A stretch of DNA of 64,000 bases from Klenkia taihuensis (lineage in GTDB: Bacteria > Actinomycetota > Actinomycetes > Mycobacteriales > Geodermatophilaceae), in assembly GCF_900112525.1 (NCBI RefSeq), contig NZ_FOMD01000001.1, positions 248,001 to 312,000 of the forward strand, written 5' to 3'. Positions 34,844-38,856 of the stretch are shown here, piece after piece. The notes beneath the pieces are model-generated. The model was not told the origin of the DNA, ran no database searches, and saw nothing but the letters and a program-made list of their open reading frames with translations. The translations under genes were made by a program, and so were the position numbers. Every line of letters starts with the position of its first letter. The first letter of the stretch is position 1.

Positions 34844-35356
34844 ATGACCGAGCCGCAGGAGATCGTCGACCCCCGCGTGATGCGGGACGTGCTGGGCCAC
34901 TTCGCCTCCGGCATCACCGTGGTGACGGCCGTGGAGGAGTCCGGCCCGATCGGGTTCACCTGCCAGTCGTTCAGCTCCCTGTCGCTGGACCCGCCGCTGG
35001 TCAGCTTCGCCCCGGCCCGCAGCTCGACCACCTGGCCGCGGCTGCGGGCCATCGGCCGGTTCTGCGTCAACGTGCTGGCCGACGACCAGGACGGGCTGTC
35101 CACGCAGTTCTCCCGGTCGGGCACCGACAAGTTCGCCGGGGTGGGGTGGTCGCCCAGCGCGCACGGCTCACCGGTGCTGGACGGCGTGGTGGCCTGGATC
35201 GACTGCGAGCTGCACGCCGAGCACGACGGCGGCGACCACACCATCGTGGTCGGCCGGGTGCTCGACCTGGGCGCCACCGCCGAGCGGACCCCGCTGGTCT
35301 TCCACCGCGGCGCGTACGGCCTCCAGGCCGCCGTGGTCCCGCCCCCCGGCGCGTAG
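34844..35356 (+). CDS. flavin reductase-like FMN-binding protein
   Basis: 170 aa. RDVLGHFASGITVVTA, then GFTCQSFSSLSLDPPLVSFAPARSSTTWPRL and GRFCVNVLADDQ are hallmarks of the short-chain flavin reductase (HpaC/RutF) family, which supply reduced FMN/FAD to monooxygenases. FHRGAYG near the C-terminus is the NADH-side motif. No monooxygenase partner is next to it. CAAGAT 6 bases before the ATG could serve as a weak -10. Confidence 0.9.
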   Translation: MTEPQEIVDPRVMRDVLGHFASGITVVTAVEESGPIGFTCQSFSSLSLDPPLVSFAPARSSTTWPRLRAIGRFCVNVLADDQDGLSTQFSRSGTDKFAGVGWSPSAHGSPVLDGVVAWIDCELHAEHDGGDHTIVVGRVLDLGATAERTPLVFHRGAYGLQAAVVPPPGA

Positions 35357-35386: not shown

Positions 35387-37693
35387 CTAGCCGAAGCAGA
35401 CGGCGATGAGGGCGACGTCGTCGCGGCGGTCGAGGTCGGTCGCCACGGCGTGCGCGATGAGGTCGGCCGGGCCGGCGCCCACCGGGGCGGCGCCCAGCCG
35501 TCGCACCAGCGCGGCGATGCCGTCGTCGAGGTCCGCGCCGGGGTGCTCGACCAGGCCGTCGGTGTAGCCCACCAGCACGGCGCCGGCCGGCACCTCCACC
35601 TCGACCGTGGAGCGCCGGGTGTCGGCGTCCACGCCGACCAGCAGGCCGGCGGCCTCGTCGAGCACCCGCACCCCGCCGTCGGGCAGGCGCAGCAGCAGCG
35701 GCGGGTGGCCGGCGCTGGCCACCAGCAGCCGCCACGGCCGGCCCTCGCCCGTCGGCGGCTCGGCCCGCACGTAGGCCATGGTCGCCATCGACGCCACGTG
35801 CAGGCCCTGCACCAGCCGGTCGACCCGGCCCAGCACCGAGCCCGGGTCGGGGTCGGGCGCGTCCCACATGCAGGCCCGCAGCAGCCCGCGCAGGTGGCCC
35901 ATCGCGGCGGCGGCGGCGACGTCGTGGCCGACGACGTCGCCGATGGCCACGCCGACCGCGCCGTCGGGCAGCTGCAGCAGGTCGTAGAAGTCCCCGCCCA
36001 CGTCGGCGGCGGTGGAGGCGCTGACGTAGTGCGCCGCCGCGGCCACCCCCGGGATCTCGGGCAGGGCCGGCAGGAGGGACCGCTGCAGGGTCTCCGCGAC
36101 CTGGTGCTCGGCCTGGTAGAGCCGCACGTTGTCCAGGGCCAGCGCGGCCCGGCGGGCGAGGTCCTGCACCAGGTCGACGTCGTGGTCGTCGAAGGGGCGG
36201 TCCTCGGACTGCCGCACCAGCGCCACGGCGCCCAGCACCCGGCGGCGGGCGATCATGGGCACCGCGAGGGCCGAGCGCCCGCCGAGGCGGTGGAAGGCCT
36301 GGCGGGTGCTCTCGCGGGCGAACACGTCGTCCAGCACCTCGTCGGTGACCTCGGCCATCAGCACCGGCTGCCGGGTCTCCATCGCCTGCCGGCTGGGCGA
36401 GCCCGGCGTCAGGTGCAGGGCGTGCTCGGTGCTGATGGCGCGCAGCTCGTCGGACAGGCCCCGGCGGTGCCGTGCCGCGGTCTCCTGCACGTCGCCGTGC
36501 GGGTCGACGACGGTGACGAAGACCCAGTCGGCCAGCAGCGGCACGCACAGGTCGGCCAGCCGGTCCAGCAGCTCGGTCATGTCCAGCGTCGCGCTCAGCG
36601 AGCTGGTCGTCTCGGCCATCAGGCCCAGCCGCTCCTGGGCGAGCTCGGCCTCCTCGCGGGCCTCCTCGGCGTCGGCGCGGGCCTGCTCGGCCACGGCCTG
36701 GGCGACCTCGGCCTCGCGGCGGGCCGCCTGCTCGGCGGCGAAGGCGGCCTCGCGCTCGCGCTCGACCCGCACCCGCTCGGTGACGTCGGTCTGCACGCCG
36801 ACGAAGCTGACCAGCTCACCGGCGCCGTCGAGGACGGGGCTGATCGAGACCTGGTTCCAGAAGGCCGTGCCGTCCTTGCGGAAGTTCAGCAGCGTCTCGG
36901 TGACCGGACGGCGCGCGTCCAGGCCGGCCCGGATGCGGGCAACGACGGCGCGGTCGGTGGCCGGCCCCTGCAGGAACCGGCAGTTGCGGCCGACGGACTC
37001 CTCGTAGGTGTAGCCGGTCACCCGGGTGAAGGAGGGGTTGACCCAGACCAGCGGGTCGTCCTCGCGGCGGGGGTCGGTGATGGTGAAGCAGATGTCGGTG
37101 GCCAGCACCGCGCGCTCCCGCAGCGCCTGCAGCTGCGCCTCGTCGTCGACGCGGTCGGCGTCGATCTGCAGGAACACCACCAGCGCCAGCTGCTCGGCGT
37201 CGGGCACCGGGGACAGCGGGAACCCGGTGACCCACAGCGTGCGCCCGGGCGACCCGTCGGCGGGGCGCAGCCGCACCGCCTCGCCCGACACCGGGGTGCC
37301 CTCGGCGACCAGCGACAGCGGGCTGCCCGAGCTGGCCAGCGGCTGCCCGCCCAGGTCGGTCAGCCCGGCGCTGGTGCCCCATTCGTCGATGGGCAGCGGC
37401 AGCCGGACGTCACCGGCCAGCTCGATGGCGGCGGAGTTGGCGTAGACCACCGTGCCGGCGTTCTGGTCGATGACCAGGACGGCGACCGGGACGTCGGCGA
37501 GCACCCCGGGCAGCGCCGACCGGGCGCCGTCACCGGACTGCGACACCACGGCGGCCGCGGCACCCACGGCGCCGGCCTGGTGCTCCCGTCCGCGGTCGGG
37601 CGCGGCGCCGGCGGCGGCGTCCGCGACGACGGCTGCGGCCTCGGGTGGTACGTCCGCGGCGTCGGGGCCGGCGGGCTCGGGGGCCGGTGGCAC
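35387..37693 (-). CDS. blue-light sensor phosphatase: PAS-LOV-coiled coil-GAF-PP2C
   Basis: 768 aa from GTG 37693. Pro/Ala-rich start, then PAS (about residues 60-190) with VLVIDQNAGTVVYANSAAIEL. Next is a LOV domain (about 197-305) with the flavin-Cys motif GRNCRFLQGPATD (Cys238), FWNQVSISPV and LVSFVGVQTDVTERV. A Glu/Ala-rich coiled coil (about 305-365) and a GAF domain (about 370-515) follow. The C-terminal SpoIIE/PP2C phosphatase (about 540-768) keeps its metal Asp residues in DVGGDFYD, GDVVGHD, YTDGLVE and RDDVALI. It probably dephosphorylates an anti-sigma antagonist in response to light. No STAS or anti-sigma gene is adjacent. Confidence 0.9.
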   Translation of the reverse strand: MPPAPEPAGPDAADVPPEAAAVVADAAAGAAPDRGREHQAGAVGAAAAVVSQSGDGARSALPGVLADVPVAVLVIDQNAGTVVYANSAAIELAGDVRLPLPIDEWGTSAGLTDLGGQPLASSGSPLSLVAEGTPVSGEAVRLRPADGSPGRTLWVTGFPLSPVPDAEQLALVVFLQIDADRVDDEAQLQALRERAVLATDICFTITDPRREDDPLVWVNPSFTRVTGYTYEESVGRNCRFLQGPATDRAVVARIRAGLDARRPVTETLLNFRKDGTAFWNQVSISPVLDGAGELVSFVGVQTDVTERVRVEREREAAFAAEQAARREAEVAQAVAEQARADAEEAREEAELAQERLGLMAETTSSLSATLDMTELLDRLADLCVPLLADWVFVTVVDPHGDVQETAARHRRGLSDELRAISTEHALHLTPGSPSRQAMETRQPVLMAEVTDEVLDDVFARESTRQAFHRLGGRSALAVPMIARRRVLGAVALVRQSEDRPFDDHDVDLVQDLARRAALALDNVRLYQAEHQVAETLQRSLLPALPEIPGVAAAAHYVSASTAADVGGDFYDLLQLPDGAVGVAIGDVVGHDVAAAAAMGHLRGLLRACMWDAPDPDPGSVLGRVDRLVQGLHVASMATMAYVRAEPPTGEGRPWRLLVASAGHPPLLLRLPDGGVRVLDEAAGLLVGVDADTRRSTVEVEVPAGAVLVGYTDGLVEHPGADLDDGIAALVRRLGAAPVGAGPADLIAHAVATDLDRRDDVALIAVCFG

Positions 37694-37706
37694 GCCGGGG
37701 ATGGTA
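37694..37706 (-). promoter_or_regulatory. -10 element of a leaderless LOV-phosphatase transcript
   Basis: TACCAT (37706-37701, minus strand) followed by 7 bases and the GTG at 37693. No ribosome binding site. Confidence 0.55.
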
Positions 37707-37804: not shown

Positions 37805-38413
37805 ATGGGCTTCCTGGACCGGCTCCTGGGACGCGACCCCGCCCCGCGACCCACCGCACCCCCCGCCGCACCGCAGGTCGGCCCACCGCGGTCGGCCGAC
37901 GAGCAGGCCGTCGAGCGCTACCGCTACCTGCTGCGCACCGCGCCGCCGGACCAGGTCGAGGCCGCGCACGCCGAGGCCTTCGCCAAGCTCACCCCGGAGC
38001 AGCGCCAGCAGGTGCTCACCCAGCTCGGCGACGCCGTCCCGCCGGGCGAACGGCCCACCTCCGACGACCCGCAGCAGCTGGCCCGCGCGGCCACCCGCGC
38101 CGAGGTGCGGCAGCCGGGCACGCTGGAGCGCTCGTTCGGCGGCGGCGGGATGGGCGGTCGCGGCGGCCCGGGCTTCGGGTCGATGGTCGGCGCCTCGCTG
38201 CTGGGCACCGTGGCCGGCGTCGTCGTCGGCACCGCGGTGGCTGACGCGCTGTTCGACACCGGGATGGGCGACGGCGGCCTGTTCGGCGGCGGCGACGAGG
38301 AGGCCTACGCCCAGGGCTACGAGGACGGCGCCGGGGGCGACCCGGGTGCCGACGCCGGCGGTGACTTCGGCGGCGGGGACTTCGGAGACTTCGGCGGTGG
38401 CGGCGACTTCTGA
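37805..38413 (+). CDS. conserved hypothetical protein with Gly/Asp/Phe-rich tail
   Basis: 202 aa from ATG 37805, with GAGAGGA upstream. FLDRLLGRDPAPRP start, then a helical segment AVERYRYLLRTAPPDQVEAAHAEAFAKLTPEQRQQVLTQL that pairs with LTPEQR-type small domains. A hydrophobic Gly-rich stretch GASLLGTVAGVVVGTAVADALF (about residues 134-155) could be a single membrane helix. The tail is Gly/Asp/Phe repeats (GGDFGGGDFGDFGGGGDF). Function not recognised. The last 97 bases overlap the 3' end of the opposing gene. Confidence 0.72.
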   Translation: MGFLDRLLGRDPAPRPTAPPAAPQVGPPRSADEQAVERYRYLLRTAPPDQVEAAHAEAFAKLTPEQRQQVLTQLGDAVPPGERPTSDDPQQLARAATRAEVRQPGTLERSFGGGGMGGRGGPGFGSMVGASLLGTVAGVVVGTAVADALFDTGMGDGGLFGGGDEEAYAQGYEDGAGGDPGADAGGDFGGGDFGDFGGGGDF

Positions 38414-38856
38414 TCCGCCTCCTCCCGCTCCACCTCGCCGAGGTGGCGCAGCCAGAGCAGGCCGAGGACGGGCAGGGCGAGCGGGATGAACCCGTAGCCC
38501 TGCCCGTACACCGACCACACGGTCGCGTCGGGGAAGGCCGCCCGGTCGGCCAGCGACAGCGTGCCCACCACCAGCACGCCCACCAGCTCGACCAGGCACG
38601 CCACCACGGCGGTGCGCCGTCCGCCGCGGCCGCCGCGGGCCAGGCCGACGGTGGCCACGAGGTAGACCACCGCGGAGAAGGCCGACAGCAGGTAGGCCAC
38701 CGGCGCCTCGTCGAACTGGGTGGCCAGCTGGACGGCGGCCCGGGCGCCCGCGGCGAGGGCGAAGGTGCCGTAGACGGCGACGAGCACCCGGCCCGGGCCG
38801 CGGGCGGTGCTGGCGTCGCCGGGCTCCGCCGCGGGCGCGCCGAGGCGGTCAGCCAC
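38317..38856 (-). CDS. four-helix membrane protein, Lys-Ser-Pro-rich C-terminus
   Basis: 179 aa. Four hydrophobic segments (about residues 25-45, 52-72, 83-104, 120-138) end with LWLRHLGEVEREEADQ. The C-terminus KSPPPPKSPKSPPPKSPP is encoded antisense to the Gly/Asp/Phe repeats of the gene on the other strand, so this tail is a by-product of the overlap or at least constrained by it. Second gene of a two-gene unit: its ATG overlaps the preceding stop by 8 bases. No named family recognised. Confidence 0.7.
   Translation of the reverse strand: MADRLGAPAAEPGDASTARGPGRVLVAVYGTFALAAGARAAVQLATQFDEAPVAYLLSAFSAVVYLVATVGLARGGRGGRRTAVVACLVELVGVLVVGTLSLADRAAFPDATVWSVYGQGYGFIPLALPVLGLLWLRHLGEVEREEADQKSPPPPKSPKSPPPKSPPASAPGSPPAPSS

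Follow-up and report, generated by a model that had tools for sequence, protein, structure and literature searches.

A PAS-LOV-GAF-PP2C protein of Klenkia taihuensis as a candidate blue-light phosphatase of partner switching

SpoIIE-type phosphatases are counted among the typical LOV effectors in passages of a 2014 review (PMC4844311); the LOV-SpoIIE architecture is already known, and what is new here is evidence for its wiring. The protein considered in this work, labelled P0001, is encoded on the reverse strand of a stretch of 64,000 nucleotides from Klenkia taihuensis, a member of the Geodermatophilaceae (contig NZ_FOMD01000001.1, positions 248,001 to 312,000; hereafter the window), and it shares the pairing of LOV and SpoIIE domains with these proteins while adding an N-terminal PAS domain, a middle GAF domain and a proposed target set. 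Among the matches listed in a search of the open literature, no characterised LOV-PP2C protein and no linker rule for LOV-PP2C proteins was found. RsbU and RsbP of Bacillus and Rv1364c of Mycobacterium tuberculosis are likewise PP2C initiators of partner switching that carry PAS or other sensors, and the activation of phosphatase dimers through a coiled-coil linker, described for the RsbU/RsbP type in excerpts of PMC12143880, may be a further shared trait. In Rv1364c the PAS-PP2C unit is joined to a kinase and a STAS domain, an arrangement partly mirrored by relatives of P0001 (L225/L229 and L163); in contrast to all three proteins, the Klenkia phosphatase would take its input from a LOV photosensor and a GAF domain, and its gene is unlinked to those of its presumed partners. 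YtvA, a LOV-STAS protein, likewise couples blue light to an output of the SigB type (PMC7522486), yet there the LOV domain sits on a STAS protein inside the stressosome, whereas in Klenkia it sits on the phosphatase. LOV diguanylate cyclases, YF1 and PadC likewise have sensor-effector linkers whose length follows a heptad rule (PMC10396304, PMC6798134, PMC9587094), whereas the Klenkia linker leads to a phosphatase, with a GAF domain in between. Finally, PAL, the PAS-ANTAR-LOV protein of Nakamurella, also has PAS and LOV domains in one chain and tops the Foldseek list for P0001 (6hmj, by domains, target TM 0.33). PAL binds RNA and has an ANTAR domain, whereas the Pfam scan of P0001 returned no ANTAR match and no STAS domain.

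At slightly better than even confidence, we propose that P0001 is a light-driven partner-switch phosphatase acting through a STAS protein, an RsbW-like kinase and a sigma factor encoded on contig C5 of the same genome, with the STAS protein as its substrate. The initial annotation, made from the letters of the window, had described a PAS-LOV-GAF-PP2C protein with an intact photoactive cysteine motif and intact PP2C metal residues, and all of these points were borne out. The 768-aa reading frame is intact, with zero internal stops on translation, and Pfam recognises SpoIIE (residues 576-766, 129 bits against a cut-off of 25), PAS_9 spanning the LOV domain (residues 211-306, 75 bits), GAF (residues 371-520, 53 bits) and, weakly, an N-terminal PAS_8 (residues 66-100, 33 bits against a cut-off of 22), while the NCBIfam LOV models (YtvA family, LOV histidine kinase) give partial, sub-cut-off matches within residues 189-325. 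The motif GRNCRFLQG occupies residues 235-243, so that its cysteine is C238, and this residue is kept in 88 of the 89 rows with a letter at that position in an alignment of 90 homologs. That alignment was drawn from 120 phmmer matches by dropping those below 280 bits, the copy of the window itself (L001) and near-duplicates with the same last 400 residues, and the search patterns used to gather the loci did not contain the cysteine. In the same alignment the LOV residues Asn270 (89/89), Asn280 (88/89) and Gln301 (89/90) are conserved, which we take to be flavin contacts and the counterparts of N482, N492 and Q513 of AsLOV2; the PP2C residues Asp568 (90/90), Asp586 (90/90), Asp712 (88/88) and Asp759 (88/89), presumably metal ligands, are conserved as well, and Asp758 is also present in the Klenkia protein. 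The motif cysteine, the presumed flavin-contact residues and the fold mark the one domain as LOV, and the score above the SpoIIE cut-off and the aspartates mark the other as SpoIIE-type PP2C.

The degree of conservation bears on what the LOV domain may do. Conceivably it is a structural or redox flavin module, with ligands of the PAS and GAF domains controlling the enzyme and light having little or no effect in vivo. Redox roles exist for LOV domains, P0001 combines three sensor domains, and some genomes of the family do without the gene, one of them retaining it only in decayed form. However, LOV is the most conserved sensor domain of the P0001 orthologs, with a mean identity to P0001 of 0.80 across 53 close orthologs (PP2C 0.71, PAS 0.68, GAF 0.59; first 59 residues 0.40 over 52 rows), and the cysteine is nearly invariant across the wider alignment, and we hold this reading to be very unlikely.

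The GTG start assigned in the initial annotation is well supported because a TANNNT box recurs 5-8 nt ahead of a candidate in-frame GTG start in 38 of the 45 orthologous loci, each of which offered 1 to 11 candidate in-frame starts, and is rare in controls: counted per codon, the pattern precedes 0/1646 internal in-frame start codons and 15/469 upstream start codons in any frame. In the window TACCAT is followed by 7 nt and then by GTG at 37693, and the phosphatase mRNA is probably leaderless, judging from this arrangement. The nearest ortholog found, from K. brasiliensis, is 95% identical.

An AlphaFold2 model built on a 30-sequence alignment (mean pLDDT 81) shows the expected elements in each domain, namely PAS at 71-176, LOV at 201-303, helices at 305-337 and 342-367, GAF at 390-494, a long helix at 503-540 and PP2C at 550-767; the relative placement of these domains is uncertain because pTM is 0.48. 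In Foldseek the LOV part matches LOV-derived flavin proteins with a target TM of about 0.95, and the PP2C part matches 3ke6_B, the RsbU domain of Rv1364c, with a target TM of 0.55 and an rmsd of 3.1 across 232 columns, the 50 matches listed being mostly LOV- or PAS-containing proteins.

Across the family the linker between the LOV and GAF domains, measured from LOV Gln301 to GAF Leu370, keeps to a heptad phase. Its length is 6 modulo 7 in 89 of the 90 aligned proteins, and in 107 of 108 (rows sharing the last 300 residues merged) when two separate profiles serve as anchors and the linker itself is left unaligned; the in-phase lengths form eight classes (34, 41, 48, 55, 62, 69, 76 and 83), and the lone exception among the 108, L124, has a length of 40 and has also lost the cysteine. 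L173, which gave no anchor and was measured by hand, has an out-of-phase linker of 51, for a total of 107/109. A fresh sample from elsewhere in the class, from whose 13 anchored rows L193 and L195 were omitted as repeats of L091 and L096, in which four anchor-missed proteins were measured from sequence and from which a re-check found no further row with both domains to be missing, contributed 15 new proteins, 14 of them in phase and one, L228, out of phase at 51; in this sample L199 is truncated ahead of the cysteine and L208 retains it. With both sets pooled, 121 of the 124 members of the LOV-GAF-PP2C family are in phase, as against 54% of PadCs in PMC9587094. The phase is not absolute, because L173 and L228 depart from it. 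An association between loss of the cysteine and loss of the phase was considered, as L124 shows both, and is not established, because L173 and L228 keep the cysteine and are out of phase. These two LOV-GAF-PP2C proteins (L228:6108-8516(-) and L173:6122-8356(+)), with the cysteine intact and linkers of 51, offer a natural way to test the linker rule.

A tree of the 108 proteins, built without the linker columns and excluding L173, requires at least 21 changes of linker length, and twenty in-phase changes, if random modulo 7, would have a probability near 1e-17, a figure that ignores slippage of 21-bp units. Slippage of such repeat units, rather than selection on the phase of a coiled coil, could itself generate the observed lengths, as the longer linkers are Ala/Glu-rich heptad repeats that could gain or lose whole units, and the cysteine-bearing L173 and L228 are out of phase. 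Against it, short, non-repetitive-looking linkers of distant clades are also in phase (41 in Pseudonocardia; 55 in L232, L234, L235 and L236), and slippage as the whole explanation seems unlikely to us. In the same proteins the PAS-LOV spacer is not quantised (commonest remainder 39/82), and the GAF-PP2C spacing, taken between residues 520 and 568, measures either 48 residues (86/90 proteins) or 50 (the other 4). The mean hydrophobic spectrum of 106 linkers, scanned over 80-120 degrees only, has its maximum, with a power of 2.73, at 3.53 residues per turn, and is nearly as strong, with 2.55, at 3.6; as proof of a coiled coil this periodicity was set aside, for the spectrum shows a helix and cannot single out a coiled coil. 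A dimeric coiled coil that passes a signal from LOV towards a PP2C dimer would nevertheless be the simplest joint reading of these sequence patterns. Heptad length rules have been described for kinases and cyclases with LOV sensors, for phytochrome cyclases and for several LOV families (PMC6798134, PMC10396304, PMC9587094), and PPM phosphatases are known in which the linker drives dimerisation (PMC12143880).

Partner switching as the role of the family is well supported by gene linkage and fusions in relatives, in agreement with the link drawn in the initial annotation. To scan the predicted genes flanking relatives of P0001, profiles of STAS, RsbW-like and sigma proteins were made from genes encountered in this work, and 20 of the 144 locus entries (duplicates included) gave a match, while 124 did not. 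In L100, L105, L107 and L119 (Pseudonocardia) and in L113 (a Pseudonocardiaceae metagenome-assembled genome), STAS, RsbW and sigma genes lie divergent from the phosphatase gene; these five loci hold four distinct phosphatases, as L119 repeats that of L107. In L156 a HATPase gene, a STAS gene and the phosphatase gene stand in a row, and a HATPase gene lies at most 0.5 kb away in L087, L089, L110, L161, L172 and L173, all of which keep the cysteine. Among the other matching entries, the matches of L096, L115 and L160 are either weak or far off, the HATPase gene of L162 lies at 1.6 kb, and L158, L159 and L171 repeat L156, L089 and L087. A further sample of 16 loci held two proteins (L225:5863-8397(-) and L229:6072-8693(+)) in which LOV-GAF-PP2C is fused to an RsbW-like HATPase_c_2 domain scoring over its cut-off, and one locus, L231, in which a STAS gene and a SpoIIE-HATPase protein adjoin the phosphatase; L227 has a HATPase gene 2.6 kb off, L224 repeats L096, and the 11 others gave no match. 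A paralog within the genus Klenkia, L163:5944-8583(-), has the PAS-LOV-GAF-PP2C order followed by a C-terminal STAS-like domain (STAS_2, 29.0 bits, just below the cut-off of 29.2) and then by a HATPase gene. Linkage of the RsbU/RsbP kind is thus found in relatives such as L100, L105, L107, L113, L119, L156, L163, L225, L229 and L231, and is lacking in the 45 close orthologs.

A PP2C domain acting on a phosphoprotein other than a STAS protein would account for that lack, as the scan of the 45 close orthologous loci detected no STAS gene. However, relatives from several families repeatedly have STAS and RsbW-like partners next to them or fused to them, and we regard such a substrate as the least probable of the readings weighed here, highly improbable on present evidence. 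Linkage of a partner-switch phosphatase to STAS and kinase genes is usual, not required.

Within the Klenkia genome, STAS, RsbW-like kinase and SigB/F sigma genes are all present. SpoIIE gives 14 matches, two being parts of one gene, STAS gives 8 (7 over cut-off) and HATPase_c_2 gives 25, and scans with the latter two confirmed the earlier observation that the phosphatase gene has neither a STAS nor an anti-sigma gene next to it. Two further LOV-GAF-PP2C paralogs are present, at 53% and 49% identity. The genome's fourth LOV protein (L141:2188-4419(-), 744 aa) combines EAL, DICT, PAS/LOV (GRNCRFLQ) and GGDEF. The initial annotation had called the target of P0001 unknown and had suggested a genome search for its STAS substrate; that search narrows it to candidate STAS, RsbW-like and SigB/F-type sigma genes on C5. 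In the four distinct Pseudonocardiaceae loci, the first STAS protein finds its best match of the 8 in Klenkia C5:394079 (46-49%), the RsbW protein finds its best match in C5:391701 (43-48%) of 10 HATPase genes compared among the 25, and the sigma factor is 62-64% identical to the C5 sigma, which is the one match over the cut-off of the SigBFG model among the 11 sigma matches listed in the genome; the L105 sigma also passes that model. Of 57 family genomes, 48 carry the C5 STAS and 38 a phosphatase ortholog, and all 38 are among the 48; at the same threshold the C5 STAS is found in 0/40 other genomes.

Several observations weigh against the assignment to C5. The three candidate genes do not form one operon: the RsbW-like gene adjoins the sigma gene, but some 2 kb, including a gene on the opposite strand, separate it from the STAS gene upstream. 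STAS, HATPase and sigma genes were found near none of the close orthologs (0/45 loci, 9/45 of which have short flanks), and the Pseudonocardia clade, from which the assignment is drawn, falls outside the Geodermatophilaceae clade in a quick tree rooted for drawing only. The co-occurrence of STAS and phosphatase (Fisher p 1e-5) is confounded by a few small-genome lineages. The phosphatase is dispensable, because it is absent from 10 of the 48 STAS-bearing genomes (one of which, G008, is 73% complete) and is decayed in one of these, G052, where a remnant (L186:6821-7486) matches only residues 57-112 and 590-767. The other 13 SpoIIE matches of the genome could act on the same STAS. Lastly, partners of related phosphatases point elsewhere, as the STAS-like part of L163 is nearest C5:690128 (50%), and the partners of L161 are nearest C10:110658 (85%) and C10:106071 (66%), those of L089 likewise. 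As the STAS proteins used by sister paralogs seem to be different ones, the target call is moderate, and the C5 set, unlinked to the phosphatase gene, is only the best candidate. The same mechanism might operate through a different STAS (for example C10:106071, C5:690128, C10:870645 or C7:800547), with another anti-sigma/sigma pair or a non-sigma partner as the output. Paralogs of P0001 are linked to such STAS/HATPase genes, the HATPase_c_2 matches are numerous, and 5 of the 8 STAS matches keep the Ser of the S-x-G motif at the SpoIIAA-equivalent site of the alignment, presumably the site phosphorylated in SpoIIAA. However, C5 is where the only relatives found to have all three genes (STAS, kinase and sigma) point, and the C5 sigma alone exceeds the SigB/F/G cut-off; a different STAS remains the lesser possibility, to be kept in mind as a tentative alternative. 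Docking loops and substrate choice are treated in part of PMC11418112.

The light-driven phosphatase acting on the C5 set can be set out as follows. A soluble, dimeric blue-light photoreceptor phosphatase would start partner switching when blue light drives formation of a flavin-Cys238 adduct in the LOV domain. The resulting change would be relayed through the coiled-coil linker, the GAF domain and then the near-fixed helix, by which the two PP2C domains would be moved into (or out of) an active dimer, and the PAS and GAF domains may add further inputs. PP2C would then dephosphorylate a STAS anti-anti-sigma protein, which in its dephosphorylated form would bind the RsbW-like kinase, and a SigB/F-type sigma factor would be released. 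Flavin binding, control by light and its sign (for which we favour light-on), the way the dimer works and the choice of STAS substrate are inferred. For the wider family it is, on balance, somewhat probable that Actinomycetota possess light-gated phosphatases that connect blue light directly to a SigB/F-type sigma factor, with no stressosome and with a near-fixed heptad phase between LOV and GAF, and that the family includes one-chain fusions to a kinase (L225, L229) or to a STAS-like domain (L163).

The genes that flank the phosphatase (Table 1) look like a chromosomal frame and not like functional evidence. The flavin reductase-like gene was considered as a functional partner of the LOV domain and rejected, as it co-occurs with the pair of small membrane-type genes where the phosphatase is absent: the reductase lies near the membrane pair in six loci without a phosphatase match and in one with decayed pieces (L186-L192), and the gap from pair to reductase between match ends is about 70 bp in L192, about 190 bp in L191 and about 0.9-1 kb in L187-L190. 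The small membrane proteins, which have no Pfam or NCBIfam match and are encoded directly upstream of the phosphatase in L046, L047 and L048, were likewise rejected as specific operon partners, because the 121-aa protein is common in genomes without the phosphatase; it was matched in 11 of 12 tested family genomes of this kind (the miss, G012, is 79% complete) and, outside the family, in three of the four genomes searched. The neighbours are probably not specific partners, since they are found together also where the phosphatase is absent. A divergent frame at 37805-38413(+), between the phosphatase and the upstream membrane genes, encodes a Gly-rich 202-aa protein with no Pfam match.

Table 1. 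Coordinates of the phosphatase gene, its parts, its neighbours in the window and the candidate partner genes
Feature	Position	Strand	Remarks
PAS-LOV-GAF-PP2C (SpoIIE-type) phosphatase gene	35387..37693	-	GTG start, 768 aa; protein label P0001
TACCAT, -10-like box	37701..37706	-	7 nt ahead of the start codon; promoter probably leaderless
N-terminal PAS domain, about residues 60-180	37154..37516	-	PAS_8 at 66-100; model strands/helices 71-176
LOV domain, residues 198-305	36779..37102	-	Pfam, NCBIfam, model, Foldseek
Codon of putative photoactive Cys238 (GRNCRFLQG)	36980..36982	-	kept in 88/89 aligned homologs
Jalpha and LOV-GAF linker, residues 305-367	36593..36781	-	heptad-quantised across family; helices in model
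GAF domain, residues 371-520	36134..36583	-	least conserved folded domain
GAF-PP2C helix, residues 503-540	36074..36187	-	near-fixed spacing; helix in model
PP2C/SpoIIE domain, residues 561-768	35390..36013	-	Asp568, Asp586, Asp712, Asp758, Asp759
Flavin reductase-like gene	34844..35356	+	convergent; PF01613 155 bits; 40/45 loci, 39 convergent
Small membrane-type protein gene	38317..38856	-	usual upstream neighbour, 40/45 loci
Small membrane-type protein gene, 121 aa	38849..39214	-	usual upstream neighbour, 43/45 loci
Candidate STAS	C5:394064-394423		best match to Pseudonocardia STAS (C5:394079)
Candidate RsbW-like	C5:391563-391994		best match to Pseudonocardia RsbW (C5:391701)
Candidate SigB/F-type sigma	C5:390613-391563		over SigBFG cut-off

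Geodermatophilaceae inhabit sun-exposed rock and soil. If the proposed pathway is true, a single protein connecting blue light with a sigma factor of the general-stress type would explain the ability of these bacteria to prepare for sunlight stress in advance. Thanks to the linker rule and the single candidate sigma, the pathway is directly testable, and the LOV-PP2C-kinase fusions of the family might be compact optogenetic switches.

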